Shown: positions 6,953 through 29,431 of the stretch, in pieces
Layout of the letters: every line of letters begins with the position of its first letter
Position numbering within the stretch: position 1 is the stretch's first letter
Source: Paludibacteraceae bacterium
Lineage (GTDB): Bacteria; Bacteroidota; Bacteroidia; Bacteroidales; Paludibacteraceae
Length of the DNA: 63,168 nucleotides
Direction of reading: 5' to 3'
Assembly (NCBI GenBank): GCA_024405895.1
Contig: JAKSNW010000010.1
Span: 1-63,168, forward strand
The notes under the pieces: model-generated
Databases searched by the model: none
The model's input: the letters and a program-made list of their open reading frames with translations, nothing else
Told to the model about the DNA's origin: nothing
Made by a program: the position numbers and the translations under genes

Positions 6953-6992
6953 TGTTGTACTTTTTTGTCTTTTGTTAGGGGATGGGGAAAAG

Positions 6993-7033
6993 AAAAAGGT
7001 CTTTGCTCGTGTTGTTTGGCAAAGACCCTTTTG
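6993..7033 (-). terminator. Strong intrinsic terminator after yebC
   Basis: On the minus strand CAAAAGGGTCTTTGC pairs with GCAAAGACCTTTTT around a 12-base loop, giving a stem of about 13 bp that ends in a T-tract, 30 bases after the yebC stop. Confidence 0.85.
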
Positions 7034-7062
7034 TTTATCTCATGTGCTCTGTGTAATTCGGT

Positions 7063-7791
7063 TTATTCTTCGTCTTCCTCTTCGGCCATGTTGTGGAATA
7101 CGTTCTGAACATCTTCGTCCTCTTCGATTTTCTCGATGAGTTTGTTGACGCTCTCTCGCTGTTCCGGTGTGAGGTGTTTGACGTCGTTAGGGATGCGGAC
7201 AAATTCGCTAGAGTTGATTTCGAAGCCGTTTTCCTCGAGGTATTTCTGGATGGCTGCGTTCTGAGCGAAGTCGCCGTAGATGATGATTTCTTCTTCGTCC
7301 TCCACCAACTCTTCTACGCCGAAGTCGATGAGTTCGAGTTCGAGTTCTTCGAGTTCGATGTCGGCTTTCTTGGCTACGTGGAAGATACATTTGTGCTCGA
7401 AGAGGAACTCAAGGCTGCCTGTGGTGCCGAGGTTGCCGCCGTGTTTGTTGAAGTAACTGCGTACGTTGGCCACGGTACGTGTGGTGTTGTCGGTAGCAGT
7501 CTCAACGAAGATAGCGATACCGTGAGGGCCGTAGCCTTCGTAGTTCATCTCCTTATAATCAGATGCGTCTTTGTCGAATGCTTTCTTGATAGCGCGTTCT
7601 ACGTTTTCCTTAGGCATGTTCTCTTTGCGAGCGGTCTGCATCAGGACGCGGAGACGTGGGTTGTTGTCTGGGTCGCCGCCGCCTTGTTTGGCTGCGATGG
7701 TGATTTCTTTACCGATTTTGGTGAATACGCGGGCCATGTTGCCCCAACGTTTCAATTTTCGTGCTTTACGAAACTCAAAAGCTCTACCCAT
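7063..7791 (-). CDS. YebC/PmpR family protein
   Basis: A 242-residue member of the YebC/PmpR family, described in different bacteria as transcription regulators and, for some members, as translation factors acting on stalled ribosomes. Family landmarks: MGRAFEFRKARKLKRWGNMA at the start, FTKIGKEI, AAKQGGGDPDNNPRL, the helical segment ENVERAIKKA, then YEGYGPHGIAIFVE and TASRTV-like TDNTTRTVANVR. The C-terminus (about 225-242) is very acidic. Standard length. It is monocistronic, with a -7 box at 7857 and a strong terminator. Cytoplasmic. Which of the two activities applies cannot be read from sequence. Confidence 0.93.
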   Translation of the reverse strand: MGRAFEFRKARKLKRWGNMARVFTKIGKEITIAAKQGGGDPDNNPRLRVLMQTARKENMPKENVERAIKKAFDKDASDYKEMNYEGYGPHGIAIFVETATDNTTRTVANVRSYFNKHGGNLGTTGSLEFLFEHKCIFHVAKKADIELEELELELIDFGVEELVEDEEEIIIYGDFAQNAAIQKYLEENGFEINSSEFVRIPNDVKHLTPEQRESVNKLIEKIEEDEDVQNVFHNMAEEEDEE

Positions 7792-7856
7792 TGTAGTGTT
7801 GTTTATGTTTTAGATACTATTTGTTTGTCAAAAAGATGCTTCTTGCGAAACGAGCG

Positions 7857-7864
7857 CAAAGGTA
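7857..7864 (-). promoter_or_regulatory. -7 box upstream of yebC
   Basis: Minus-strand TACCTTTG, matching TAnnTTTG, 65 bases upstream of the yebC ATG. No clear -33 TTTG at the usual distance. Confidence 0.4.
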
Positions 7865-7906
7865 CGATTTTTTTGTTAATCCGTAGCCTTTTATGCCCAA
7901 AAAAGG

Positions 7907-8932
7907 TTACTGAAAGATTAGAGACAGTCCGATTTGCGTGTATTTAGGGAGGTTTCGGAACTGTCCGTAGGGGCAGTTGCCATGGTAGGCACGCACTCCG
8001 ACGGCAAATTGGGAGAAGACACCGCTGTAGTTGGGAGCGTTGATTCGGAGACCGGCAAAGAGGTTGTAGGTGAATATTCTACGTTCATCCTGAGTGCCTT
8101 CTCCGTTGTAGGTGTAGCCGTGGAGAGCGCGGTTGCGTATCTCTGCGGAGACAATGCCCTGGAGTCCTCCTTGTGTCGCTTTTGTCTGATATTGGTATTG
8201 CAGCCAGACCTCTACCGGGGCAGTCGGTTGGCTCAGCAGTTGGTCGGGACCGTCGGCAGGGGTGACGTTGTAGCCCCGTCGGCTGAGGTTGTAGAGCACG
8301 GCGGCACTGAGACGTAACGTGTGACACGATGCCCAGGAGTCCTCCGGCTCGTTGACCGTGAAGGCGAGTTCGGCATAGTTGTAACTGACATTCACCCGTC
8401 GTAGCGTGTAGCCTTGCTCCATGTGCTGGATCTGCAGTTCGTCGCCGATATGGGTCGACTCATGCTTATAGGGACTGAAGGCGATAGAGTAGTTGCGGAG
8501 AAATCCCTTGTTGAGGCGGTGGATAAACGTCGTGGTAGGCATGCCGAAGCGGTAGTCGGTGTTGACCACCGGGGCTGTCGTAGGCTCCAGGATATCAAGC
8601 CAGATGGTTGACGAAGCGGTTGTGGAGAAACTCACTCCAAAGCGGTTCTGCTGAAACTCACCTCGCCAGATAGGTGCCTCCATGCCCATGACACCGAAGA
8701 CAGACATACGCCATGGCTTGTTGCTCTGGCTGTAGTCGTAGGCAGTGTGATTGCTGAAACCGGCGATGTCGATGCGGGCGAAGTTGGGGTGGACGTCGGC
8801 AAGGAGCGAACGGCCGTAGGGGGCGTAGCAGAAGAAGCCCTTGCGAGGCAACTCCTGAGCCGTGATATGGAGTGAAAAGGCGGTGAGCAAGAGCATCAGC
8901 AGCACTTTCCAGTGGCAGTTTTCGTGTGTCAT
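7907..8932 (-). CDS. Outer-membrane beta-barrel protein, unknown role
   Basis: A 341-residue exported protein counted from the ATG at 8932. The open frame extends to 8989, but the added residues precede an obvious signal peptide (WKVLLMLLLTAFSLHITAQ). The mature part is rich in alternating aromatic and polar strands (NYAELAFTVNE, WLQYQYQTK, YNLFAGLRI, GVRAYHGNCPYG) and ends in IGLSLIF-Q, close to the terminal aromatic signature of outer-membrane barrels. FCYAPYGRSLLADVHPNFAR near the N-terminus slightly resembles the DUF1207 family start; I do not rely on this. It is divergent from the glutamine synthetase gene. Substrate unknown. Confidence 0.7.
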   Translation of the reverse strand: MTHENCHWKVLLMLLLTAFSLHITAQELPRKGFFCYAPYGRSLLADVHPNFARIDIAGFSNHTAYDYSQSNKPWRMSVFGVMGMEAPIWRGEFQQNRFGVSFSTTASSTIWLDILEPTTAPVVNTDYRFGMPTTTFIHRLNKGFLRNYSIAFSPYKHESTHIGDELQIQHMEQGYTLRRVNVSYNYAELAFTVNEPEDSWASCHTLRLSAAVLYNLSRRGYNVTPADGPDQLLSQPTAPVEVWLQYQYQTKATQGGLQGIVSAEIRNRALHGYTYNGEGTQDERRIFTYNLFAGLRINAPNYSGVFSQFAVGVRAYHGNCPYGQFRNLPKYTQIGLSLIFQ

Positions 8933-9079
8933 TATATATAATATTGTATGGAAACGGCTGAAAACGGATCTCGAAGTGCCGTTTTGCAACCCAAAAGTGG
9001 TGCAAAATTAGCACAAACCTCCCTAATTCGGGTAGGGAAAAGTGGATTTTTTGATGCTTAGGGTCACGGAATACCCCTC

Positions 9080-9106
9080 TTGTTCCGTAAAAAAGTCGTA
9101 TATTTG
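9080..9106 (+). promoter_or_regulatory. Promoter of glutamine synthetase III
   Basis: TTG (9080-9082), 16 bases, then TATATTTG (9099-9106). Predicted transcription start near 9113 gives a leader of about 37 bases before the ATG at 9150. It also shows that the longer open frame starting at 9042 is not the real start. A minus-strand TAATTTTG (9010-9003) is a candidate -7 box for the divergent outer-membrane protein gene. Confidence 0.6.
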
Positions 9107-9149
9107 CACTTTATTAACGAGCATTTGCCCAACAATAAAAACCGTTACT

Positions 9150-11336
9150 ATGTCAGACTTAAGATTCAAGGTTGTGGAAAAAGCCTTTGGAAAGCAACCA
9201 CAAGCCGTGGAAACGCCAGCGCAACGTCCTGCAGAGATGTTCGCCAGCAAAGTGTTCGATCGCGATAAGATGCGTCATTATCTCCCTCAAGACATCTATT
9301 GTGCCTTGGTGGATGTGATGGATAATGGTACTCCACTCGACAAGAGCATTGCCGATGCTGTGGCTGCAGGCATGAAACAATGGGCTACGGAACAAGGTGT
9401 TACTCACTATACCCACTGGTTTCAGCCGTTGACGGGTGGCACAGCCGAGAAGCATGAGTCGTTCATTGAATATGGCATAGGCGGAGACGTCGTAGAGACC
9501 TTCTCCGGCAAGGTGCTCGTGCAGCAGGAACCAGATGCCTCCAGTTTCCCTAACGGTGGTATTCGAAATACCTTTGAAGCACGTGGCTATACCGCTTGGG
9601 ATGCATCATCTCCGGTTTTTATCATCGATGATACCCTCTGTATCCCAACCATCTTCATCTCCTATACAGGCGAATCGCTCGACTACAAAGCCCCGCTTCT
9701 GCGCTCACTTCGTGCATTGAACAATGTGGCATTGGAGGTGAGTCGCTGGTTCTATCCTGAGGCCAAACGTATCAGCACCTTCCTCGGCATCGAACAGGAG
9801 TATTTCCTTGTGGACGAAGACCTCTGTGTGGCTCGTCCGGATCTCCTGCTGACAGGCCGTACGCTCATGGGACACGAGGCTGCCAAGAACCAACAACTCG
9901 ACGACCACTATTTCGGCCATATCCCACAACGTGTCGTTGCTTTCATGAAAGACCTCGAACAGTGTGCACTTCAGTTGGGTATTCCGCTCAAGACACGACA
10001 CAACGAGGTGGCTCCCGGTCAGTTCGAACTGGCTCCTATCTATGAGGAGTGCAACCTGGCTGTGGATCATAACATGATACTGATGTCGCTGATGCACAAC
10101 GTTGCCAGCCGTCATGGCTTCCGCGTATTGCTTCATGAGAAACCGTTCAAGGGCGTCAACGGCTCCGGCAAACACTGCAACTGGTCGTTGGGCACCGATA
10201 CCGGTGTGCTGCTCTTTGCTCCCGGCAAGAGCGAGGACGAGAACCTCCGTTTTCTCACCTTCGTGGTCAATACGCTGATGGCAGTCTATCGTCACAACGG
10301 ACTCTTGAAGGCTTCTATCATGAACGCTACCAATGACCACCGTCTGGGTGCCAATGAAGCCCCTCCTGCCATCATCTCTGCTTTCCTGGGCAGTCAACTC
10401 TCTGGCATGCTCGATGCATTGGAGAATAGTGCTGACGACCGTCTGCAGCAGACAAAGAAAAAGGTGGGTCTCCGTTTCGACCTCCCACAGATTCCAGAGA
10501 TTCTCATCGACAATACCGATCGCAACCGCACCTCACCGTTTGCTTTCACGGGCAACCGTTTTGAGTTCCGGGCCGTCGGCTCTGAGGCCAACTGTGCCTG
10601 TGCCATGATAGCACTCAACTCAGCCGTAGCACAGCAACTGAAGGAGTTTAAGCAGACTGTTGATGCATTGGTAGAGCAGGGTGCTCCACTGAGAAACGCC
10701 ATCGTCAAGACCTTGAAGGAATATATTCAGACCTCAAAGCCAATACGCTTTGAAGGCAACGGCTATTCCGATGCTTGGAAACAGGAGGCTCTTCGTCGCG
10801 GACTTGACTGCGAGACCAGTACGCCGCTGATCTTTGACAACTACCTCACTCCAGAGACCGTGAAGATGTTTGAGTCGGTGGATGTGATGACAGCCAAGGA
10901 GTTGGAGGCTCGCAACGAGGTGAAATGGGAGACTTATACCAAAAAGATACAGATTGAAGCACGCGTTCTTGGCGACCTTGCCACCAACCATATCATCCCT
11001 GTGGCCAAAGAGTATCAGAGCAAACTGATTGACACCGTCTATAAGACTATGAAGATTGTGGCTCAAGAGGAAGCGGAGGTGCTCGCTGCCGATAATCTCC
11101 GACTTATTCGCGAGATTTCGCAACATAATGCCGCAATCGCCGAGAATGTGAAACGTATGGTGGAAGCCCGCAAGGTAGCCAACAAAATCACTTGCGAACG
11201 CGAGAAAGCCATTGCCTACCACGATACGGTGGCAAGTTGCTTCGAGGTCATCCGTGAACATATCGACAAACTCGAACTCATCGTTGACGACCGCATCTGG
11301 ACTCTGCCGAAATACCGCGAATTGCTCAATATCTAA
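9150..11336 (+). CDS. glnN: Glutamine synthetase, class III
   Basis: ATP-dependent formation of glutamine from glutamate and ammonium in the cytoplasm. The 728-residue length is that of class III enzymes, far above the roughly 450-470 of class I/II. Class III landmarks seen: HYTHWFQPLTGGTAEKHE, ASSFPNGG, FLGIEQEYFLVD, LKTRHNEVAPGQFELAP, KGVNGSGKHCNWS and NATNDHRLGANEAPPAI, with metal- and ATP-binding Glu, His and Arg positions. The C-terminal third is helical, as expected for the dodecamer of this class. The start MSDLRFKVVEKAFG is fixed by the promoter at 9080-9106. It is followed 27 bases later by miaA on the same strand. Confidence 0.96.
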   Translation: MSDLRFKVVEKAFGKQPQAVETPAQRPAEMFASKVFDRDKMRHYLPQDIYCALVDVMDNGTPLDKSIADAVAAGMKQWATEQGVTHYTHWFQPLTGGTAEKHESFIEYGIGGDVVETFSGKVLVQQEPDASSFPNGGIRNTFEARGYTAWDASSPVFIIDDTLCIPTIFISYTGESLDYKAPLLRSLRALNNVALEVSRWFYPEAKRISTFLGIEQEYFLVDEDLCVARPDLLLTGRTLMGHEAAKNQQLDDHYFGHIPQRVVAFMKDLEQCALQLGIPLKTRHNEVAPGQFELAPIYEECNLAVDHNMILMSLMHNVASRHGFRVLLHEKPFKGVNGSGKHCNWSLGTDTGVLLFAPGKSEDENLRFLTFVVNTLMAVYRHNGLLKASIMNATNDHRLGANEAPPAIISAFLGSQLSGMLDALENSADDRLQQTKKKVGLRFDLPQIPEILIDNTDRNRTSPFAFTGNRFEFRAVGSEANCACAMIALNSAVAQQLKEFKQTVDALVEQGAPLRNAIVKTLKEYIQTSKPIRFEGNGYSDAWKQEALRRGLDCETSTPLIFDNYLTPETVKMFESVDVMTAKELEARNEVKWETYTKKIQIEARVLGDLATNHIIPVAKEYQSKLIDTVYKTMKIVAQEEAEVLAADNLRLIREISQHNAAIAENVKRMVEARKVANKITCEREKAIAYHDTVASCFEVIREHIDKLELIVDDRIWTLPKYRELLNI

Positions 11337-16676: not shown

Positions 16677-19600
16677 GTGGCCAATAGCAACGACCACTGT
16701 ACTTTCTATTATGACGAATTGAACGGCGTCTATGTCGGTGCAGAAGACAATACCCCTATGGGCTATGGCAACCGTCCAAAATACACCTCAACACTTCATG
16801 CATACTCGGTGAATGCCCGTCTCCTCACCCGTTTCTATACACCGGGCTATCAGATTGGCTCTGCTACAGCCAACGACACCCGACCTATCAACCCATACTA
16901 TAAATACAGTTGTGCTCAATCTATCTACACTGCCAGTGAGATAGGTGGAGCTGGTTTCTTGAGAGGCATCAGTTTGATGACAGCCTCTAACTTTGCCGAC
17001 AACCGTAACGTCGAGATCTACGTCGGTCACACCGACCTTAACTCCTACAGCTCCGTCACACCTATTCCTCTGGAGAATATGGTGAAAGTGTATGGCGGCA
17101 TCACCAACTTCGAAGGAAATGCCCGCTACACCTATTTCCCTTTCAACCAACCATTCCTCTACAATGGCCGACAAAATCTTGTGGTTTATGTCTACGATAA
17201 GACTGGTGTCTACGACAACAACCAGCGTCCAACCTTTGCCGTAGAACCAACCACCACCTGTCGCTGTATCTACGACCGAGCCGACACTCGTACCTGCGAA
17301 CCAGCCAACTGGGCTATGCAGACTTCAAACTCTCGTCCTGTCGTCTTGTTCGACATTAAGAGAGGTGGAGTGGAAATCGGCTCTTGTGCTGTCAGCAACC
17401 GTCCGGGCGAGCCTATCAACGACGACTACAAATACACCGTCACCCAAATCATCTATACCAAAGAAGAACTGGGTCAGCAGCCTGTCATCCTCAACAACAT
17501 CGCCTTCCATCAACTTAGTGGTAATGTCACTCGAAGCGGTTATATCTACCTCAGCGAGACCGACAAATCTACCTTTGCCAACAATGCCGACTGGGATCCG
17601 ATTGACAACTACGGCAAGGCTCACGTCGGTACATTCAGTTTCAACAAAAACGACGACTGGGCTACCGTCAACTTCCTCTATCCGTTTACCTATTCCGGTA
17701 AGAAGAATCTCTGTGTCACCATTCTCGACTACACCAACTCTGCCAATCCGGGCGTGGATATCTACACCCCGTATTTCTGTGAAGAGGCAGTTGCAGGGAA
17801 GGTGCTCCGAGCCTATTGTGACACCGTTCAGATCAACCCACAAAATGCCAACCGCTATGCCTCACCGGCCATCTTGCCTTACCGCCCAATAGCTAAGTTC
17901 GGCATGTCGCCTGTCTCATCCTGCGACCTCGTCATCACCCCGAACGAACCATATAGCGAAGACTTCCAATCTGGTCTCATTCCATCCTGCTGGCAGGTAG
18001 GCAGCTATCAAGGCGGTTCTACACCAGGCATCTCCAATACCACCTTGCCAAGCGACAGTGCTACCAACTACTCGCTGACACTTCGTGGTAACGACAAATA
18101 TGCCTCTACACCTCTGGTGCTCAACCCAGTGAAAGATACCCGATTGAGCTTCCGCGTGTGGAAATCCAATGGCAACCCTAACGACCTCATCGTTGGTGTC
18201 TCCGAAGTACAGGCTCTCTCTTCTTCGTCAGCCGTCTCCTATCGCTTCGTACCGCTCGACACCATCTCCGATGCTGCCAACGGACAGTGGACATCCTACA
18301 ACCTCCAACTCTACAACGGAGGTCCACAAGGCAACCGCTACATCTCCTTCGTCACCAAAGGCACCTCTACCACTGCCGACTACCATATCGACGATATCCT
18401 TATTGAGGCTAACGAGATTGTCTTGCCAGAGTTCACCTCTCTCTACTCAATAGAAACCGGTGGTTCGGTTAGGGCTGTTGTCAATGTCGACACACACGGC
18501 AAGGCCTCAAAATATGAGTTGCGACTCTGCAACACACCTAATGCCAACGACTATTTCTGGGTCAACAGCAACCTCACTCCGAATTCCATTATTCGTCCGA
18601 GTGCCAACCTCGCCTTCAACACCAAATACTACGTCTTCATCCGCATCAAACTGGCCGACAACTACTACACCGATTGGGTGATGCAAGAACTTGTCACCGT
18701 GCGTCAAGCCGTCACTCTCCCTGTTATAGAAGAGTTTGAAAATAGCTCTGCTGTTGCTGCTAAATGGGGTCTCAACACCTACACAGGCACCAACGGTTGG
18801 TTTGTAGGCTCAGCTGCCAAATCAGAAGGCAACCAAGGTCTCTACATCTCCAATAACAATGGTGTCAGCAACCAGTATGGCAGCACCACCACCAATGCTA
18901 CTGCCATCCTCGATGTCCAGATGTCTAACGGTACCTACAACGTAGAATATGCATGGCGTTGTAAAGGTGAAATCTACTCTTCAGGAACCAATGCCTACGA
19001 CTACTTCCGTGTCTACCTTGCTCCTTCAACTGTTTCCGATGCTACCCTCCAATCTTTCTATGGTGCTTCCACACTTCCATCTGGCTGCATCCCATTGGAT
19101 AATGGCAGTTTCCTCAACTCCACCATCGATACTCTTTGGCACAAATACACCGGTTCTGTCGATATCGCCACTGCCGGTACCTACAAACTCGTTATCCTCT
19201 GGCACAACGATGCCTCAGTCTGCAACGATCCTCCAGTAGCTATCGACCACCTCTTCCTCGGCAACACCGTGGCAAGAACCATCAACGACTCTACCTGCCG
19301 CAACGTACCATATACTAAATATGGTTTCAACGTCACCACCGATGAGATTCAGACCGGTGCGATGGCTGTTCGTACCCACCGCAGCAACGATACCGTCTAT
19401 ACGCTCTATCTCACCCTCGTCGACGTGAAGAGAACCAACGTGTATGCCAACGTTTGTCAGACCGACTTGCCTTACATTTGGAAAGGTATGTCAATGACCG
19501 AGACTGGCAACTTCAATGCTTATCTCACGGCTGCAAACGGTTGCGACTCTATCGTTACCTTGCACCTCACCGTCAATCCTAACACCAAAGACACCGTTTA

Positions 19601-22600
19601 TGTCTCTGTCACCAGTGCCGACCTCCCTTACACCTGGCGAGGTCAGACCTACAATGCTGCAGGCACCTACACTGTCACCGAGCCTGGTGTCGTAACTCCT
19701 TGCCCTAATTACCATACCTTGGTATTGACCATCACCGATCTCCCGGTTCGTTCTCTCCCTTATATCACCGATTTTGAGAACACCGTGCTTGATGCCGACT
19801 GGTTCTTCTACAACAACTCAACCTCACCTAACCGAAGCGAGTGGCATATCGGTTCCGCAGTCAACAATGGTGGCAACCGTTCGCTCTATATCTCCAACGA
19901 CGGTGGCTTGACCCATACCTACGACGAAGCCTCAACCACCATTACCATGGCAGTCTTCCCAGCTCATGCAGCAGCAGGCAACTATGCCATCAGCTACGAC
20001 TGGCTGGGCCTCGGCGAGTCTTTCTACGACTACATGCGTGTCTATGTTGTTCGTGCGTCCGACTTCGATGCCTCAACACTCTTCGGCAGTGTCAACTACC
20101 AATCTCTGCCAAGCTACACCATTCCTGTGGCCAACAGATACCTCAATGGTCATAACACCTGGCAGCATGAAGCAACTATCGTCAACCTCCCAACCACCGA
20201 CGACTACTACGTTGTCTTCCACTGGCAAAACGATGACGACACCTACAACGACCCACCTGTTGCTATCGACAACTTCAGATTTACCGCACCGATATATTCT
20301 ACAGTGGGTGTTACCCATTGTAACGACGAAGAATTCAATCGCTTCGGCCTCCATCTGAGTGTTGAAGACTTGGCATCTCTCACTGGAGAGAATTACATAA
20401 CTTCCACTTCCAACGATACTATATATCGTGTATACCTTACCGTTGTGGAAGCTAAGACTACCAACCTTACTCAGACTGTCTGCTCTTCTGATCTTCCATT
20501 CTCTTGGAATGGTCAGACCATCACGGCTGCAGGTACCTACACCCACAACGATTTGACAGTCTACGGTTGCGACTCTATCGTGACACTCACCGTCAATGTC
20601 AACCCTGTCAAAGCCTCCAGCGAGACTATGACATTCTGTTCTTCCGAGTTGCCTTACTCATGGCATGATTATATTATCACTGCTGAAGGCACCTACACCT
20701 ACACCACTACGGCTGCCAACGGCTGCGACCCTGTTGTGACACTCACTGTCAACGTCTTCCCTTCTTATTCAAACACATGGAATGTCACACGTTGCTCCAA
20801 CGAATTGCCATACATCTGGCATGGCAAAACCTACAATGCCACCAGTACCGACATCTGGACCAGCACCACTGCCAACGGCTGCGACTCTGTTGAAACACTC
20901 AACTTCACCGTCTTGCCATCTACCGTCGACACCGTGCATATCAACCTCAACTATGGTGATTCTGTGCTCATCAACGGCATCTACTATCATGCTACAGGCA
21001 CTCAGATGGTCAACTACATCAATGCTTCTGGCTGCGACTCTGTGGTCTACTACAAACTCCGCACCGTTCCTGCCAACCAGGTAACCTTGCCTTATGTTGA
21101 GAACTTCGAGAATACTCAAAATGGCGACTGGGCTGTTGTCTCAACCTCTACTGCTGCAGCTGCTTCCAAATGGTATGTTGGTACAGCTGTCAACAATGGT
21201 GGAACACACTCTCTCTACGTCTCCAACGACAATGGTGTAAGCAATGCCTACACCTCTGGTGGCTATCGTTCGTCTGCTGTTCGTTATGTTCACGTACCAA
21301 CCACAGGTAACTACGACGTTGCCTACGATTGGCGTTGCTACGGCGAATACAACTCTGGTCAAACCTCATTCTACGATTACTTCCGTGTCTACCTTGCACC
21401 TGTTACAAGCACCACACTGGAGTCTATCAACAACTGGTATAGTCCGACTTCAATGAATGCCAACTACATCTCTCTCGATGGCATCATAAACCACTTCGGT
21501 CCAGCCAATCCTAACTGGGAGGCTTTCGACGACAGTGTCAACATCCCTGCCGGCGACTACTTCCTCGTCTTCCTCTGGCGCGACGACAGTTCTATTGCAC
21601 ACAACCCACCTGCTGCTATCGACAACTTCTATCTGGGTCAGAACCTCCATCGTCTCACCTTCAACGACAATGCTTGTACCGGTAGCGACTACAACGGCCA
21701 CGGCTTCAGCTTCACAGCCAGCCAGCTTGTCTCTGGTCTCCATACCTATACACGTATCAATGGCGACTCACTCATCACCCTCAACCTCACCGTATCGCTC
21801 CGAAGCGAGACCAGTCAGTCTATGTCGTTGTGCCCATCCGAACTGCCTTACAGTTGGCATGGTCAGAACATCACTGCTGCAGGCTCCTACACATGGAACG
21901 GCACTGCTGCCAATGGCTGCGACTCTATCGTGACACTCAACGTAACACTGAAGCAGCCAAAGGCTTCCAACGAGTCAATCGCTGTCTGCCCATCCGAGTT
22001 GCCATACAGTTGGCATGGTCAAAGCCTCACCGCTGCAGGCAACTACAACTACACTACCACAGCCTCTAACGGTTGCGACTCTGTTGTTACCCTGACCTTC
22101 TCTGTAAAACAGGCAAAGGCCACCACACTCACACAGAGCATCTGTCCTGCCGACATCCCATACAGCTGGCATGGTCAGAACATCACAACGGCTGGTACTT
22201 ACACCTGGACAGGTACTGCTGCCAATGGCTGCGACTCAGTGGTAACATTGAATCTCACCGTCAGTCAGGCGAAGACCAACACTGTCAACCGTGCTGTCTG
22301 CCCATCCGAACTCCCATTCTCTTGGAACGGTCAGAACATCAACGCTGCAGGCTCTTATACCTACAACACTGTAGCTTCCAACGGTTGCGACTCCATCGTC
22401 ACCCTCGTGGTTACTCTCAAGCAGCCTAAGGCCACCAGCCTCACACAGACCATCTGCCCATCCGACATCCCATACAGTTGGCATGGTCAGAACATCACAA
22501 CGGCTGGTACCTACACTTGGACAGGCACTGCCTCCAACGGCTGCGACTCTGTCGTAACCCTTACCTTGACTATCAGTCAGGCAAAGAGCGCTAACGTCTC

Positions 22601-23465
22601 ACTCAGTGTTTGTCCTTCCGAATTGCCATACACATGGAATGGTCAGAGTCTCACTACCGCAGGCACCTACACCTACAACACCGTGGCTGCCAACGGTTGC
22701 GACTCAGTAGTTACACTCACCTTCACCGTTAAGCAAAACAAGGCAACCAGCGTTTCCTACACTGCTTGTCCATCTGAATTGCCTTACACTTGGAATGGTC
22801 AGAGCCTCACTACCGCAGGTACTTACACCTACAACACCGTGGCTGCTAACGGCTGCGACTCAGTAGTGACACTCACCTTTGCTGTTGGACAAACCAAAAC
22901 CACCAACCTCAGCCACGCTGTCTGCGACAACGAGTTGCCATACCTCTGGAATGGTCAGAGCCTCACTGCTGCCGGCACCTACACCTACAGCACCACCGCT
23001 GTCAATGGCTGCGACTCTATCGTGACCCTCACCCTGACTGTCAACGCTACCTTCCAAGGCACAGAGACCCTCGACCTCGAGTCAACCGATCTCCCATACA
23101 CTTGGAACGGACAGACCATCACTGCAGCAGGCACCTACACCTACAACGGTACCACTGCTGCTGGCTGCGACTCCGTCATCACCTTGACTGTCACCGTCAC
23201 TACCGTTGGTCTCGACTATGCCGACGACATGCTCTTCCGCATCTCACCAAACCCTGTGAAACGTGGTGAGACCGTCCGCATTGATGCCGAAGTAGGGGAG
23301 TCCTTCGTCGTAGAGCTCTACACCTCTGAGTCCAAACTGATGAACCGCTTCACTGCCGAAGCATCACCACTCTTCATCACCATGCCAGAGGTCGATGGTC
23401 TCTATCTCATCCGTCTCGTCACCGAATCCGGTCGCGTGATGTACGGCAAAGTCATCGTGAAGTAG
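16677..23465 (+). CDS. Giant T9SS adhesin-like protein, main part
   Basis: 2262 codons open, from a GTG at 16677, in frame with 15642-16634; the true gene probably spans 15642-23465, about 2600 residues. Order of parts: rest of module copy 2, copies 3 (IYTASEI, VEIYVGHT, LVVYVYDKTG) and 4 (IIYTKEEL, NLCVTILDYT); a MAM/jelly-roll-like domain; then three further beta-sandwich domains starting LPVIEEFEN, LPYITDFEN and LPYVENFEN, each ending P-P-V/A-A-I-D-N/H, alternating with about 50-residue repeats of the form C-P-S-E-L-P-Y-x-W-x-G ... N-G-C-D-S-V-V-T-L; nine such repeats run unbroken near the end. The final 90 residues are a T9SS type A sorting domain (ISPNPVKRGETV, GLYLIRLV, YGKVIVK). Each repeat usually has two Cys that could pair. 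Likely a long surface adhesin or matrix protein. Confidence 0.85.
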   Translation: MANSNDHCTFYYDELNGVYVGAEDNTPMGYGNRPKYTSTLHAYSVNARLLTRFYTPGYQIGSATANDTRPINPYYKYSCAQSIYTASEIGGAGFLRGISLMTASNFADNRNVEIYVGHTDLNSYSSVTPIPLENMVKVYGGITNFEGNARYTYFPFNQPFLYNGRQNLVVYVYDKTGVYDNNQRPTFAVEPTTTCRCIYDRADTRTCEPANWAMQTSNSRPVVLFDIKRGGVEIGSCAVSNRPGEPINDDYKYTVTQIIYTKEELGQQPVILNNIAFHQLSGNVTRSGYIYLSETDKSTFANNADWDPIDNYGKAHVGTFSFNKNDDWATVNFLYPFTYSGKKNLCVTILDYTNSANPGVDIYTPYFCEEAVAGKVLRAYCDTVQINPQNANRYASPAILPYRPIAKFGMSPVSSCDLVITPNEPYSEDFQSGLIPSCWQVGSYQGGSTPGISNTTLPSDSATNYSLTLRGNDKYASTPLVLNPVKDTRLSFRVWKSNGNPNDLIVGVSEVQALSSSSAVSYRFVPLDTISDAANGQWTSYNLQLYNGGPQGNRYISFVTKGTSTTADYHIDDILIEANEIVLPEFTSLYSIETGGSVRAVVNVDTHGKASKYELRLCNTPNANDYFWVNSNLTPNSIIRPSANLAFNTKYYVFIRIKLADNYYTDWVMQELVTVRQAVTLPVIEEFENSSAVAAKWGLNTYTGTNGWFVGSAAKSEGNQGLYISNNNGVSNQYGSTTTNATAILDVQMSNGTYNVEYAWRCKGEIYSSGTNAYDYFRVYLAPSTVSDATLQSFYGASTLPSGCIPLDNGSFLNSTIDTLWHKYTGSVDIATAGTYKLVILWHNDASVCNDPPVAIDHLFLGNTVARTINDSTCRNVPYTKYGFNVTTDEIQTGAMAVRTHRSNDTVYTLYLTLVDVKRTNVYANVCQTDLPYIWKGMSMTETGNFNAYLTAANGCDSIVTLHLTVNPNTKDTVYVSVTSADLPYTWRGQTYNAAGTYTVTEPGVVTPCPNYHTLVLTITDLPVRSLPYITDFENTVLDADWFFYNNSTSPNRSEWHIGSAVNNGGNRSLYISNDGGLTHTYDEASTTITMAVFPAHAAAGNYAISYDWLGLGESFYDYMRVYVVRASDFDASTLFGSVNYQSLPSYTIPVANRYLNGHNTWQHEATIVNLPTTDDYYVVFHWQNDDDTYNDPPVAIDNFRFTAPIYSTVGVTHCNDEEFNRFGLHLSVEDLASLTGENYITSTSNDTIYRVYLTVVEAKTTNLTQTVCSSDLPFSWNGQTITAAGTYTHNDLTVYGCDSIVTLTVNVNPVKASSETMTFCSSELPYSWHDYIITAEGTYTYTTTAANGCDPVVTLTVNVFPSYSNTWNVTRCSNELPYIWHGKTYNATSTDIWTSTTANGCDSVETLNFTVLPSTVDTVHINLNYGDSVLINGIYYHATGTQMVNYINASGCDSVVYYKLRTVPANQVTLPYVENFENTQNGDWAVVSTSTAAAASKWYVGTAVNNGGTHSLYVSNDNGVSNAYTSGGYRSSAVRYVHVPTTGNYDVAYDWRCYGEYNSGQTSFYDYFRVYLAPVTSTTLESINNWYSPTSMNANYISLDGIINHFGPANPNWEAFDDSVNIPAGDYFLVFLWRDDSSIAHNPPAAIDNFYLGQNLHRLTFNDNACTGSDYNGHGFSFTASQLVSGLHTYTRINGDSLITLNLTVSLRSETSQSMSLCPSELPYSWHGQNITAAGSYTWNGTAANGCDSIVTLNVTLKQPKASNESIAVCPSELPYSWHGQSLTAAGNYNYTTTASNGCDSVVTLTFSVKQAKATTLTQSICPADIPYSWHGQNITTAGTYTWTGTAANGCDSVVTLNLTVSQAKTNTVNRAVCPSELPFSWNGQNINAAGSYTYNTVASNGCDSIVTLVVTLKQPKATSLTQTICPSDIPYSWHGQNITTAGTYTWTGTASNGCDSVVTLTLTISQAKSANVSLSVCPSELPYTWNGQSLTTAGTYTYNTVAANGCDSVVTLTFTVKQNKATSVSYTACPSELPYTWNGQSLTTAGTYTYNTVAANGCDSVVTLTFAVGQTKTTNLSHAVCDNELPYLWNGQSLTAAGTYTYSTTAVNGCDSIVTLTLTVNATFQGTETLDLESTDLPYTWNGQTITAAGTYTYNGTTAAGCDSVITLTVTVTTVGLDYADDMLFRISPNPVKRGETVRIDAEVGESFVVELYTSESKLMNRFTAEASPLFITMPEVDGLYLIRLVTESGRVMYGKVIVK
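21810..23205 (+). repeat. Nine 156-bp tandem repeats within the adhesin
   Basis: The codon for the first Cys of each unit recurs at exactly 156-base steps, checked at 21831, 21987, 22143, 22611 and 22923. Each unit encodes 52 residues (SELPYSWHGQ ... NGCDSVVTL). Two neighbouring units near 22611 and 22767 are nearly identical, which suggests recent duplication. The last unit lacks the first Cys. Related but more divergent units lie upstream (about 19440-19740 and 20450-21070). Confidence 0.92.
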
Positions 23466-23962: not shown

Positions 23963-24420
23963 AAACCAAAAAGTTTAGACTCGTTGCTACCTCGCAATAA
24001 CCGTAAACCAAAAAGTTTGGACTCATTGCTACCTCGCAATAACCGTAAACCAAAAAGTTCAGACTCATTGCTACCTCGCAATAATCGTAAACCAAAAAGT
24101 TTAGACTCATTGCTACCTCGCAATAACTGCAAACCAAAAAGTTCAGACTCATTGCTACCTCGCAATAACTGCAAACCAAAAAGTTCAGACTCATTGCTAC
24201 CTCGCAATAACCGCAAACCAAAAAGTTCAGACTCATTGCTACCTCGCAATAACCGTAAACCAAAAAGTTTGGACTCGCTGCTACCTCGCAATAACCGTAA
24301 ACCAAAAAGTTTGGACTCATTGCCACCTCGCAATAACCGTAAACCAAAAAGTTCAGACTCATTGCTACCTCGCAATAACCGCAAACCAAAAAGTATTGGA
24401 TTTACTGCGAGGTAGCGTAA
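23963..24420. repeat. 42-bp tandem repeat array, about ten copies
   Basis: Unit of 42 bp, about ten copies, differing at a few positions; a degenerate copy of its AAACCAAAAAG part also lies one period upstream (23921). Each unit contains a small dyad ATTGC-6-GCAAT. The array ends with an inverted half-unit, TGCGAGGTAGC (24406-24416), the reverse complement of GCTACCTCGCA in every unit. Because 42 is a multiple of three, several frames on both strands stay open; I do not regard these as genes. Confidence 0.92.
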
Positions 24421-24860: not shown

Positions 24861-26015
24861 ATGAAAAAGTGTTTTTTTGCGCTAATCGCACTATGCGCTT
24901 TTATGGTAGTTTTATTACCATCGTGCGGCAATCCTACAAAAAGATTGATTACAAAAGTTGAGCCAGCAACATTTGTTGTTTATACTTATGATGAGTATGG
25001 TTCTCCTGTGGGCTCTGGTTCTGGATTTTTTATTGAAAAATCTGGTGTAGGAGTAACAAATTTTCATGTGCTGGATCAATCTGTCAAAGCAGCCATAAAA
25101 ACAACAGATGGCAGTTTATATGAGATAGATAGTGTACTGTGCTCTTCCTCAAAAAAAGATGTGTTGGTGTTTCGGGTAAAGAATGATAAAAGAGCTGAAT
25201 TTAAAACAGTAAAAATAACAAACAAGACTCCTGAGAAAGGCAATCAAATATATTGCATTGGAGCACCAATGGGAATGGAATCTAGTCTGTCTGAGGGTAT
25301 TATATCGTCATATCGTGATGACAACAAATACGGAAAGGTTGCCCAAATTACGGCACCTATTTCTAGTGGATCAAGCGGCAGTCCTATTTTAGATTCTGAT
25401 GGCAAAGTGTTCGCTATTGCTGCTTTTAAACGTCGTGGCGGTGAGAATCTGAATTTTGGTGTCGTGTTGAATGAAGATTTTCAAAATGAATTAGATAAAA
25501 AAGAATTTTACAAGAAAAACAGAAAGTTTAATTCTGAAAAATCAGATTTCATTCTTCTGAATGTAATGCCGGAAAGAGGCTCTGAATTAATCTTGAATGC
25601 TATTGAATTTGGCAAGACGTCAACCTCTTTGTATTTTACATTTACTAATATGCACCTTAATTCTAGCGGTGAGTATTACTTGTGGTGCGAGCTTAACGAA
25701 AAAGATAATGGTTTGTATATGGAAGATGTTGAAAGTGGTAAAAAATACTACGTAACTTCTTCTACTTTATCTTCAAACAAGAAGGATTCAGAGGCTATTT
25801 CATTAGCTGGTATAAAACAATTTAAAGTTGATTTACCTGTCATCAAAAACAAGCCATCTTCAATAAATGTTGTTTGGGACGATTGGACTTTCTCGGATAT
25901 AAATTTGGATGACTATAGAGAAAGTCTTACTATTGATGAATTGAGTTATAAAAGATCGTATGCATTGTTGTGCACTTCTGTTGCTTCTGACCCTGCCACA
26001 ACAATAGACATGTAG
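24861..26015 (+). CDS. Lipoprotein trypsin-like serine protease, part 1 (ends at in-frame TAG)
   Basis: 384 residues. Lipoprotein signal with Cys22 (LLPSC). Residues about 35-215 are a trypsin-like (DegP/HtrA-type S1) protease domain: His69 in TNFHVL, Asp100 in KKDVLVF, Ser172 in GSSGSP, plus YCIGAPMG and ITAPISSG strands. Residues about 220-365 form an unrecognised beta-rich domain (YLWCELNEKDNG, INVVWDDWTFSD). The chain then enters a TPR helix and is cut by TAG at 26013. Translation continues in the same frame in 26022-26513. No PDZ domain is seen. Predicted periplasmic or surface-anchored protease. First gene of an AT-rich operon to 29431. Confidence 0.8.
   Translation: MKKCFFALIALCAFMVVLLPSCGNPTKRLITKVEPATFVVYTYDEYGSPVGSGSGFFIEKSGVGVTNFHVLDQSVKAAIKTTDGSLYEIDSVLCSSSKKDVLVFRVKNDKRAEFKTVKITNKTPEKGNQIYCIGAPMGMESSLSEGIISSYRDDNKYGKVAQITAPISSGSSGSPILDSDGKVFAIAAFKRRGGENLNFGVVLNEDFQNELDKKEFYKKNRKFNSEKSDFILLNVMPERGSELILNAIEFGKTSTSLYFTFTNMHLNSSGEYYLWCELNEKDNGLYMEDVESGKKYYVTSSTLSSNKKDSEAISLAGIKQFKVDLPVIKNKPSSINVVWDDWTFSDINLDDYRESLTIDELSYKRSYALLCTSVASDPATTIDM
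26013..26015 (+). other. In-frame TAG splitting the protease-TPR gene
   Basis: The codons before (GAC ATG) and after (ACT GAA GTG TTG GAC) are in one frame. Read through, the sequence gives a normal TPR helix pair (ATTIDM-x-TEVLDENPEDA, then MMAIFSYIVDN). A single C to T change from CAG would produce this TAG. Confidence 0.8.
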
Positions 26016-26021
26016 ACTGAA

Positions 26022-26513
26022 GTGTTGGACGAGAATCCAGAAGATGCAATTTCGCTTAATATGATGGCGATATTTTCGTATATTGTTGATAATAAAACTG
26101 ATGCAATGTATTATTTGGAGGAGGCCATTGAGACAAATCCAAACGACGAACTCGCATATTTAAATAGGGCTGAAATGTACTCTTTTGACAAAAACTACAA
26201 AGAGGCAATTCGAAATGTAACAACAGCAATAAATCTTGTTCCTGATGACCCAGATAATTATATCACTCGAGCCCAGTATTATTATAGCGATGAAGACTAT
26301 CAAAAAGCATTAGACGATATTAGTACATGTTTGTCAAAAGCTACCGAGGGTGATGGCTTTAAAAACGACCCTCTTTTATATGAATTCCGAGCATATGTGT
26401 ACATAGGCTTGCATAATTATAGTGCAGCAAGAAACGACGTACAAAAAGCATATCGTCTATCCAAAGATAAAGATTTAGACCGTAGGTTAGAGGCTCTATA
26501 TGCTATTTTGTAG
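26022..26513 (+). CDS. TPR part of the broken protease gene
   Basis: 163 codons from a GTG at 26022, in frame with 24861-26015 and only 6 bases after its stop. It consists of about four TPR motifs: DENPEDAISLNMMAIFSY, NPNDELAYLNRAEMYSFD, VPDDPDNYITRAQYYYSD and a last one ending in LEALYAIL. It has no signal peptide, so as a separate product it would stay in the cytoplasm, away from the protease domain. It is best seen as the C-terminal half of one protease-TPR lipoprotein of about 550 residues. TPRs are protein-protein contact domains. The next gene starts 1 base after its stop. Confidence 0.75.
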   Translation: MLDENPEDAISLNMMAIFSYIVDNKTDAMYYLEEAIETNPNDELAYLNRAEMYSFDKNYKEAIRNVTTAINLVPDDPDNYITRAQYYYSDEDYQKALDDISTCLSKATEGDGFKNDPLLYEFRAYVYIGLHNYSAARNDVQKAYRLSKDKDLDRRLEALYAIL

Positions 26514-26514
26514 G

Positions 26515-27639
26515 ATGAAAAAGATAACGATAGCATTATTCTTGATATCAATATTTACTTGGGCAAATGCACAAGTAAATATTGTTTCTTCAGCACCATG
26601 GTCAAAATCATTTTCAACAAATCCTTGGACTAAAGATAACGACCTGGTATACAGAACATCTCCTTTAGGAGAGGTTGTTTATGCGTATCCGAATTATCAA
26701 GACTTTACCAAGACAAGAAATATTATAAAAAAAGACTTTTGGAATTACTATAAAATAGGTCCCGTACTAAAACGTGATTGGACTTTTGAACTTCCTATTT
26801 TCAACGTCAATTCCGCCAGAAATACAAACTACTTTGCTTATGACAAACGCAAAAAACAACCTTCAAACCAAATATATTGGGGATTTACAATTGGTTACCA
26901 AACAAATGGCAAAGAAAAACAAACAACAATTTGGATAAAAAGAAGCAACAAGAAATATTCAACCTATGGCGAAACTTATGATAGTGAGAAATATATATCT
27001 TATAGAGTAGATGATGGGGAATGGAGAGATTCATATTCTGATTATCCTTCCAATAGTGTTTATCTTAAATTAATAATAGACATTCATACTTCTTACACTA
27101 ATATATCATGGGCTGGATTGAATCTTAAAGTTCTTCCTGAATATATTGAAAAAATAAATTACTTAAGCATTCATGTTGGATGTTTAGCCTCAATTCAAGT
27201 AGGTGCAGCAAAAGCATTTAGTTCTGAGTATGCTTCTCCTGATTGTGGAATGTATTATGTTAGCAACCAACAATATTCTCAAGGCATAGAGCAACTAGAA
27301 AATTCCCAACATAATTATTACGAGTGTCAAGCATTAACATTAGCTCATTGTTATTTAGGAACAAGAAACTTTTCCAAGGTTATCGAGTTTTGCAATGCTT
27401 TAATTAATTACGATAGTTATAGCAAGAAGGAGGCTTACTTAATAAGAGGAATTGCAAATGAATATTTAGGGTATTATTCGCAAGCTCAAGCAGACTATAA
27501 TAATGCTCAGTCTTACTCAGATTATGATAGGGTGACTGGCAAAATAAAATCTCAGCAAACACAAAGTCGACAACAAACAACACAAACTCAGACAAACAAA
27601 CAGAAACAAACAACGACTAAACCACCTCTAACAAAATGA
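26515..27639 (+). CDS. Secreted TPR-containing protein, unknown role
   Basis: 374 residues from the ATG at 26515 (the frame opens at 26500, inside the upstream gene). Signal peptide MKKITIALFLISIFTWANAQ. Residues about 25-235 form a beta-rich domain that looks like a concanavalin/jelly-roll sandwich (WGFTIGYQTNGKEKQTT, YRVDDGEWRD, LKLIIDIHTS); I do not recognise a named family. Residues about 250-345 contain two TPR-like helical hairpins (ALTLAHCYLGTRNFSKVIEF, YLIRGIANEYLGYYSQAQAD). The tail is Gln/Thr-rich and ends KPPLTK, similar to the linker after the signal peptide of the next protein. Its stop overlaps the next start (ATGA). Confidence 0.75.
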   Translation: MKKITIALFLISIFTWANAQVNIVSSAPWSKSFSTNPWTKDNDLVYRTSPLGEVVYAYPNYQDFTKTRNIIKKDFWNYYKIGPVLKRDWTFELPIFNVNSARNTNYFAYDKRKKQPSNQIYWGFTIGYQTNGKEKQTTIWIKRSNKKYSTYGETYDSEKYISYRVDDGEWRDSYSDYPSNSVYLKLIIDIHTSYTNISWAGLNLKVLPEYIEKINYLSIHVGCLASIQVGAAKAFSSEYASPDCGMYYVSNQQYSQGIEQLENSQHNYYECQALTLAHCYLGTRNFSKVIEFCNALINYDSYSKKEAYLIRGIANEYLGYYSQAQADYNNAQSYSDYDRVTGKIKSQQTQSRQQTTQTQTNKQKQTTTKPPLTK

Positions 27640-28607
27640 AAAGATTTATTATGCTGGCTATTTTCTGTATATTAACAGAACTTTGCTTTGGTCAATTAAC
27701 TAAGGAATACAAGTCTCAACAAACAAGCAATTATAAACCACCCCTCTCAAAAACATTACCTTCTAATACTACAACTAAAAAAACGCAAACAACATCAAAA
27801 ACCGCTCAGACAACGGCGCCAAAACCGATGCAAACCACAACCCAGAACAATCGTTATTCCGGTGAGAAGCGTACCTTTACTGCCAATGGAGTTTCGTTTA
27901 CGATGGTCTATGTTCAAGGTGGTACATTTACCATGGGTGCAACCTCTGAGCAAGGCAGTGATGCAGCATCTTACGAAAAACCGACCCACTCTGTTACGCT
28001 CAGTTCATTTTCCATTGGCGAGACTGAGGTGACACAGGCATTGTGGGAGGCAGTGATGGGTGAATCTGTGACCCTGATTGCAAATCGCAATGGTTGGAAC
28101 ACCTGTGGCGTTGGCAGTAATTATCCTATGTATTACATTTCTTGGAACGACTGTCAGACTTTTATTAACAAGTTAAATAGCCTTACCGGCAAAAACTTCC
28201 GTCTACCTACCGAAGCAGAATGGGAGTTTGCTGCCCGTGGTGGCAACAAATCAAAAGGCTACAAATACAGCGGCAGTAATAATCTTGGCGATGTGGCTTG
28301 GTATTGGGATAACAGTAAAATCAACGGAACAATACAAACTCACCCTGTCAAGCAAAAGCAAGCCAATGAACTCGGCATCTACGATATGAGTGGTAACGTT
28401 TGTGAGTGGTGTCAAGATTGGCACGGCAGTTATAGCAGTTCTTCTCTGACCGACCCTAAAGGTCCCTCCGGTGGGTCTCACCGCGAGAGCCGTGGCGGTA
28501 GCTGTTTAGGCTCCGCCAGGGACTGTCGCTCCTCGGATCGTCTCGGCTGCTTCCCTGCCGACAACTGGAGCTTCACCCTTGGCCTCCGTCTCGCCCTCTC
28601 CGAGTAA
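27636..28607 (+). CDS. Secreted FGE/SUMF1-fold protein 1 with DGR-like variable C-terminus
   Basis: 323 residues. Signal peptide 1-19 (MKRFIMLAIFCILTELCFG), Thr/Gln/Pro-rich linker about 20-75, then an FGE-sulfatase (SUMF1) domain to the end: MVYVQGGTFTMGAT, IGETEVTQALWEAVMG, WNDCQTFINKLN, FRLPTEAEWEFAARGG, YDMSGNVCEWCQDW, SRGGSCLGSARDCR, LGLRLAL. This C-type-lectin-like fold also serves as scaffold for diversified DGR target proteins. The last 30 codons change abruptly to C-ending codons (see 28524-28604). The enzyme's usual paired active-site Cys motif is not evident, so a binding role is more likely than formylglycine formation (inference). Confidence 0.85.
   Translation: MKRFIMLAIFCILTELCFGQLTKEYKSQQTSNYKPPLSKTLPSNTTTKKTQTTSKTAQTTAPKPMQTTTQNNRYSGEKRTFTANGVSFTMVYVQGGTFTMGATSEQGSDAASYEKPTHSVTLSSFSIGETEVTQALWEAVMGESVTLIANRNGWNTCGVGSNYPMYYISWNDCQTFINKLNSLTGKNFRLPTEAEWEFAARGGNKSKGYKYSGSNNLGDVAWYWDNSKINGTIQTHPVKQKQANELGIYDMSGNVCEWCQDWHGSYSSSSLTDPKGPSGGSHRESRGGSCLGSARDCRSSDRLGCFPADNWSFTLGLRLALSE
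28524..28604 (+). other. DGR-type variable region 1 (candidate)
   Basis: Between the constant TGT CGC TCC and CTT GGC, ten of fifteen codons have the form NNC (CTC, GGC, TGC, TTC, GCC, GAC, AAC, AGC, TTC, ACC), as expected when AAC codons of a template repeat are mutated at their adenines. The constant 3' end GGCCTCCGTCT (28581-28591) recurs in region 2. The surrounding gene is AT-rich and does not use this codon pattern. Confidence 0.55.
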
Positions 28608-28624
28608 ATATAGAGAATGTTGTA

Positions 28625-29431
28625 ATGTGTAAATCTATAATTAAAACAATAATAATGCTAATTCAAAAGAAACTCACTATTCCTGTCAATGACGTTTCCT
28701 TTGACATGATTTATGTTGAAGGTGGCACATTTATGATGGGTGCATTGCCGAATGACAACGACGCATCCGATAACGAAAAGCCAAGCCACCAAGTCACCTT
28801 AAATTCTTATTATATCGGCGAAACAGAAGTAACACAGGACTTATGGCAAGCCGTAATGGGTAATGTACCATCATATTTTAGAGGAAATAAACAACCAGTT
28901 GAGCAAGTGTTTTGGAACGATTGCCAAGAGTTTATACGAAAATTAAATAGTATTACTGGCAAGAACTTCCGCTTACCAACCGAAGCAGAATGGGAATTTG
29001 CAGCTCGTGGTGGCAATAAATCTTGCGGCTACAAATATAGCGGCAGCAATAATATAGGTAATGTGGCTTGGTATAATGATAATAGTAACTGGAAATGTAA
29101 TAAATCTTTCATTTCTCTATACAAAATTATGCCAAAGCACAATTGTGACAAACAAGCATCTCATCCTGTCAAACAAAAACATTCCAATGAACTTGGTGTC
29201 TATGATATGAGTGGCAATGTTTGGGAATGGTGTCAAGATAGGTATGGATATTATAGCAGTTCATCTCAAGACAATCCTACTGGTCCTTCCGAAGGATTTG
29301 GCCGCATAATCCGTGGTGGAAGTTGGATTAGCAATGCAAAATTCTGTCGCTCCTCATTTCGTCTCTACTTATCCCCTAACAGCAGCGGCTACTACCTCGG
29401 CCTCCGTCTTGCCCTCTCCCTCTCCGAGTAA
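28625..29431 (+). CDS. FGE/SUMF1-fold protein 2 with DGR-like variable C-terminus
   Basis: 268 residues, 17 bases after its paralog. The same FGE landmarks: MIYVEGGTFMMGAL, IGETEVTQDLWQAVMG, WNDCQEFIRKLNS, FRLPTEAEWEFAARGG, GVYDMSGNVWEWCQDR, RGGSWISNAKFCR, LGLRLAL. Unlike protein 1 it has no clear signal peptide: the start MCKSIIKTIIMLIQKK is only weakly hydrophobic, and an ATG at 28655 is an alternative. It carries a 20-residue insertion (about 155-180) absent from protein 1. The last 28 codons again switch to NNC codons. A terminator follows at 29461, so it closes the operon. Confidence 0.85.
   Translation: MCKSIIKTIIMLIQKKLTIPVNDVSFDMIYVEGGTFMMGALPNDNDASDNEKPSHQVTLNSYYIGETEVTQDLWQAVMGNVPSYFRGNKQPVEQVFWNDCQEFIRKLNSITGKNFRLPTEAEWEFAARGGNKSCGYKYSGSNNIGNVAWYNDNSNWKCNKSFISLYKIMPKHNCDKQASHPVKQKHSNELGVYDMSGNVWEWCQDRYGYYSSSSQDNPTGPSEGFGRIIRGGSWISNAKFCRSSFRLYLSPNSSGYYLGLRLALSLSE
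29345..29428 (+). other. DGR-type variable region 2 (candidate)
   Basis: Between TGT CGC TCC and CTC GGC, nine of fourteen codons are NNC (CTC, TAC, TCC, AAC, AGC, AGC, GGC, TAC, TAC). The constant CGT and CCT codons match region 1. GGCCTCCGTCT followed by GCCCTCTCC is shared, and CTCTCC is then duplicated. Region 2 is one codon shorter than region 1. Confidence 0.55.

Follow-up and report, generated by a model that had tools for sequence, protein, structure and literature searches.

What question does a pair of adjacent genes raise when both end in the same constant blocks and, between them, in codons that are mostly NNC? We asked this of a 63,168-nucleotide stretch of DNA from a Paludibacteraceae bacterium (hereafter, the window), in which two neighboring genes for FGE-fold proteins have such tails. 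The pattern calls to mind a diversity-generating retroelement (DGR), a retroelement whose reverse transcriptase (RT) makes cDNA with adenine changes that overwrites a target gene and thereby varies a binding protein. A sequence-only reading of the window had taken the two tails for DGR variable regions on which an RT and a template elsewhere act in trans. The window corresponds to contig C2 in a 1.72-Mb genome assembly (G000), which has 39 contigs and is 78% complete; the genus is represented by one further genome (G001), which is 88% complete.

Two adjacent FGE-fold genes with NNC-rich tails

The locus comprises the following features, all on the + strand:

24861..26015, +, trypsin-like peptidase gene (Pfam Trypsin_2, 2e-23), given as upstream context only
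26022..26513, +, TPR protein gene (Pfam TPR_2, 2.8e-15), upstream context
26500..27639, +, gene for a 379-aa protein without a Pfam match (open reading frame), overlapping the start of FGE gene 1
27636..28607, +, FGE-fold gene 1, 323 aa (open reading frame; Pfam FGE-sulfatase, 2.5e-46)
28473..28604, +, putative DGR variable region of gene 1; NNC at 11/13 and NNY at 12/13 of the codons that are AAY in templates (one extra codon left out); GC 0.67 for 28465-28604
28581..28601, +, constant 3′ block of gene 1, positioned like the initiation-of-mutagenic-homing (IMH) sequence of a DGR
28625..29431, +, FGE-fold gene 2, 268 aa (open reading frame; Pfam FGE-sulfatase, 1.2e-49)
29294..29428, +, putative DGR variable region of gene 2; NNC at 9/13 and NNY at 12/13 of the template-AAY codons
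29399..29419, +, constant 3′ block of gene 2, identical to that of gene 1

The starts of both variable regions are approximate; that of gene 1 was set six codons 5′ of RGG, where the templates of relatives align. In a Pfam profile search, FGE-sulfatase was the sole domain in the protein of each gene, which bears out the earlier assignment of both to the FGE fold. Sequence searches against solved structures returned the same top match for both proteins, TvpA (2y3c; 2.9e-34 for gene 1 and 2.2e-36 for gene 2), which is itself a DGR target. Both window proteins are thus predicted to adopt an FGE/C-type-lectin fold with a candidate variable segment at the C terminus. The N-terminal segment of gene 1 resembles a signal peptide, as judged by eye only. 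For the window's trypsin, TPR, 379-aa, and DUF2807 neighbors, we found no match near the FGE loci of relatives (34 loci compared). Elsewhere, the window holds a tandem array of a 42-base unit (23963-24394; 10.3 copies, 94% matches, several frames open) and an open reading frame of 2262 aa (16677-23465) with 156-base internal repeats at 21831-23043.

The constant blocks that had been reported to bound both tails are where they were said to be, at the 3′ ends of both FGE genes and in frame: TGTCGCTCC is located at 28524 and 29345, and GGCCTCCGTCT at 28581 and 29399. Between the blocks, NNC accounts for 10/16 codons in gene 1 and 10/15 in gene 2; the segment is therefore NNC-rich as claimed, with counts that replace the earlier 10/15 and 9/14. 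The codons before the tails are indeed AT-rich, with a GC content of 0.43 in the body of gene 1 vs 0.67 in its tail, and of 0.37 in the body of gene 2 vs 0.59 in its tail (29344-29428; the preceding 29304-29343 has only 0.40). Relative to its own body, each tail showed an excess of NNC codons (p = 1.1e-4 for gene 1 and 5.3e-4 for gene 2), which ranked 12 and 17 among 78 FGE tails. In both tails, the reading frame stays open and the constant 3′ block is intact. The misfits to adenine mutagenesis that the earlier reading pointed out are real: there is one TTA in each tail, and gene 1 has TGT where 10 of 10 family templates (see below) have TGG. To these we add that the two tails differ by one codon in length and also at third bases, that CTT/CTC exchanges occur among the tail changes, and that gene 2 carries a six-base repeat near its stop codon.

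Comparing the two tails with each other, we found that differences in a 25-codon core fell on codon positions 1, 2, and 3 in a ratio of 6:9:4, vs 60:47:105 in the bodies (p = 0.014), a ratio that became 6:7:5 (p = 0.06) with another gap placement. Identical residues were encoded by the same codon in 12/15 cases in the tails vs 74/130 in the bodies (p = 0.07). When the entire tail from RGG onward was counted, the differences were 11:11:14, that is, not reversed. The codon-position pattern is suggestive only, pointing toward a DGR origin.

Comparison with verified DGRs of the family

As a standard, we used the DGRs of the same bacterial family. When the family genomes were searched with the DGR RT of Bacteroides phage p00, 32 of 358 gave a match at 1e-10, and 20 of the matched regions were scanned for repeats with mismatches on the adenines of one copy. 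Such a repeat pair was present in 18 of these 20, and 12 of the loci were FGE-type (L204-L215), with an AAC/AAT-rich template of the form RGGSW-NNN-A-x-N-CR-xx-N-R-NNN-x-P-x-N-R-NNN. Setting aside L212, whose repeat is the same as that of L211, and L215, whose variable region is cut by a contig end, left ten variable regions that we refer to as "verified."

We then scored the 13 codon positions that are mostly AAY in the ten verified templates. This was done for 74 of the 78 tails, as four (L148 and L156 among them) were left out for their other tail length, while in gene 1 a single surplus codon was dropped to hold the register and two gap placements were tried. The verified variable regions had a median of 11 NNC and 13 NNY codons, with NNY at 13/13 in all ten, compared to medians of 2 and 7 in eight housekeeping tails and of 6 and 10 in the other 54, unlabeled tails. 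The window tails scored 11 and 9 for NNC and 12 each for NNY, the misfit in each being TTA, and ranked 12 and 23 of 74 by NNC excess. Furthermore, both window tails have NNT immediately before the second Arg, where 8 of 10 templates have AAT. A threshold of at least 9 NNC and at least 12 NNY of 13, which was set post hoc, takes in both window tails, 8/10 verified regions, 0/8 housekeeping tails, and 13/54 unlabeled tails, with some of these 13 likely being variable regions themselves; none of the five other scored FGE tails of G000, which are among the 54, reached it.

No single tail measure is specific, as ordinary paralogues within G000 match one or the other. The NNY count alone is not specific because the ordinary paralogue L006 reaches 13/13. 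Similarly, NNC-richness alone does not show a DGR, since L007, another ordinary FGE paralogue of G000, has a stronger NNC excess (p = 1.7e-5) than the window tails and is conserved in G001 (31/38 aligned tail residues identical, with codon-position differences of 6:0:15). An unrelated FGE tail, L323, shows an enrichment at A positions (4.7e-6) that exceeds that of either window tail. G000 also contains a second adjacent FGE pair (G000:C24:5648-7098) with homologues in G001 (C4), scoring NNC 4/13 each and displaying no NNC-rich pattern at the variable codons.

Searches for a reverse transcriptase and a template

The sequence-only reading held that the window contains no RT, and this stands: no match to PF00078 (RT) was found in the window or anywhere else in the assembled, 78% complete G000, nor did the assembly match the DGR RT of phage p00. 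The profile is sensitive to what we were looking for: of 12 relatives that bear a DGR, it detected the DGR RT in all 12, with no hit weaker than 8e-14. Neither the tail DNA nor the end block occurred a third time in the G000 assembly, and no family-form template turned up there at up to 2 mismatches, by a pattern that would miss strongly deviating templates. Within the window, a scan that tolerates mismatches at adenines, and that picks up the L209 control, yielded no template. A genome-wide search for a DGR RT and for a template repeat ending in the end block, as had been suggested, found neither in this 78%-complete assembly, which accordingly shows neither component of a complete DGR, i.e., a DGR-clade RT and a template resembling the variable region.

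Beyond G000, the end block was confined to the two window genes among 393 genomes of the order at up to 1 mismatch; at 2 mismatches, two matches appeared in the family, in G031 and G065. The end block also matched DNA of G048, a match that was discarded because it has no FGE context (a G173 match was left out). Against wider genome contigs, the 18-base end block matched at least 120 stretches, with no FGE tail among the filtered matches listed (L062 and others lay outside the filter), and against viral contigs it gave 10 matches, in which no FGE tail was seen. Two template-shaped patterns had 0 matches among the viral contigs. A distant DNA search of phages and plasmids brought up nothing but two chance matches to Streptomyces plasmids, and the best homologues in phage records, L171 and L172, were rejected for lack of a DGR-like tail. 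The best-fitting known template (from G255) agreed with the window tails at only 0.72 and 0.66 of non-A positions (25/89 and 30/89 differ).

In the congener G001 (88% complete), we found no RT and no template, and its best FGE match to the window genes has 62% identity. G001 has an FGE gene of its own (L330/L148, G001:C98:846-1580) with a longer NNC-rich tail (20/32 NNC, p = 2.1e-6), and no template pair was found in the 12 kb region scanned around it; the template-pair scan of fetched loci left out L373.

Orphan tails in near-complete relatives

Two relatives show what targets without a detectable DGR look like. The genome G018 (99% complete, 30 contigs) carries two tandem FGE genes (L371, G018:C6:94000-110000, at 6985-9579) in a stretch with 93% DNA identity to the DGR locus of G076, a member of another genus. 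The first G018 tail differs from the G076 template at 19/35 A positions and at 0/94 non-A positions, and the second at 23/37 adenines and 8/95 other positions. On the 3′ side of the FGE pair, G018 has a ketopantoate reductase gene where G076 continues with a gene for an HRDC-domain protein, its RT, and its template; in the whole of the G018 assembly, RVT_1 and p00 RT searches found no DGR RT, and no template pattern was found. In G015 (99% complete), a tail (L261/L372, G015:C29) differs from the template of G096, of the same genus, at 24/36 adenines and 1/93 other positions, and again no template pattern was found in the genome. The two RVT_1 matches of G015 proved to be the defence RTs Drt3a and Drt3b (1.4e-107 and 3.8e-153) instead of a DGR RT. 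Since neither genome has a detected DGR, the G018 and G015 tails establish that this family includes DGR-written targets with no detectable DGR.

Origin of the window tails

What, then, are the window genes? From sequence comparison, we judge the chances to be about even that they are an orphaned tandem pair of DGR targets of the TvpA/FGE class, with a putative adenine specificity. The variable-region part of the earlier proposal is supported by the TvpA-like fold, the codon position and spacing relative to the ten templates, and a tandem layout as in G076, while the RT and template that it placed elsewhere were found nowhere in the 1.72-Mb, 78%-complete assembly. In such a history, template repeats of AAC/AAT codons would have been copied into cDNA with random changes at adenines, and this cDNA would have overwritten the last ~130 bases of both genes, yielding a ligand-binding face that can hold many sequences on a fixed scaffold. 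The RT-template cassette may later have been lost from this lineage, leaving an orphaned remnant whose tails now drift by ordinary mutation, as TTA, TGT, the CTT/CTC exchanges, and the six-base repeat in gene 2 may indicate. Past adenine mutagenesis and retrohoming, surface display, and RT loss at the window pair are what we infer, and the loss of RT and template has to stay so because the assembly is only 78% complete.

That incompleteness is also what feeds the main rival, a live remote DGR that still rewrites the tails in trans, its RT and template residing on a mobile element or in the unassembled 22%. The 39 contigs leave room for it, both tails are open frames with intact 3′ blocks, and remote variable proteins of DGRs have been described (PMC7517822; see also PMC8144416). 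We nevertheless regard it as a somewhat unlikely possibility: in the assembly, none of the searches by RVT_1, DGR-RT protein, variable-region DNA, 3′ block, or general template pattern turned up such an element, and the 88%-complete congener has its own NNC-rich FGE tail (L148) with no RT found. In addition, one shared template would not give two tails that differ in length and third bases. As near-complete relatives bear like tails with no DGR RT or template found, an orphaned remnant is at least as likely as service in trans.

It is rather unlikely, in our estimate, that the pair are ordinary FGE-fold paralogues that were never part of a DGR and owe their tails to normal divergence, a locally GC-rich codon usage, and possibly gene conversion between the two neighbors, which could yield the common 3′ block. 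The equally NNC-rich and conserved L007, the 13/13 NNY of L006, the A-position enrichment of L323, and the lack of a template anywhere searched all favor such an origin. However, high NNC together with high NNY is seen in 0/8 housekeeping tails and 0/5 other scored G000 FGE tails but in 8/10 verified regions, the GC content steps up sharply at the tail, and the nearest solved relative, TvpA, is a DGR target. Finally, as a quite improbable but broader idea, tandem FGE genes of this family might be maintained, and pass from genus to genus, with neither RT nor template, to be rewritten only when a cell gains a matching RT-template cassette; the window pair would then belong to a pool of receptors waiting for shared mobile templates.

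Relation to known systems

DGR surveys usually start from the RT and hence miss targets without an RT nearby; one survey itself states that remote targets are not detectable by its approach (PMC8144416). The G018 and G015 loci show that orphan targets can be recognized by borrowing the template of a relative. If the window pair is one more orphan, RT-based counts would understate how many DGR-shaped binding proteins these bacteria have. FGE-fold domains have been linked with DGRs and with conflict systems (PMC7159879), and DGR targets that lack both RT and template have been described before in other bacteria: isolates of Treponema denticola that carry target genes yet have no RT and no template were read as leftovers of lost DGRs (PMC4891356).

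The likeness to these systems extends to the tails themselves. TvpA of T. denticola has the FGE/C-type-lectin fold and a C-terminal variable segment between RGGSW and GFRLA (PMC4891356), and the window proteins match it in both respects, with a putative variable segment. The orphan tails of T. denticola are explained by a template from other isolates (PMC4891356), whereas no matching template was found for the window tails. The FGE-type cellular DGRs of the same family (L204-L215) share the tail spacing with the window, and their codons derive from AAY, as those of the window may; there, RT and template adjoin the target, whereas the window has neither, and its 3′ block matches none of theirs. 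The G018 and G015 FGE loci resemble the window in having DGR-type tails without a detected RT or template, although there the tails are matched by the template of a different genome, whereas those of the window fit no known one. The tandem layout of the window, two adjacent FGE genes, recurs in the verified DGR of G076.
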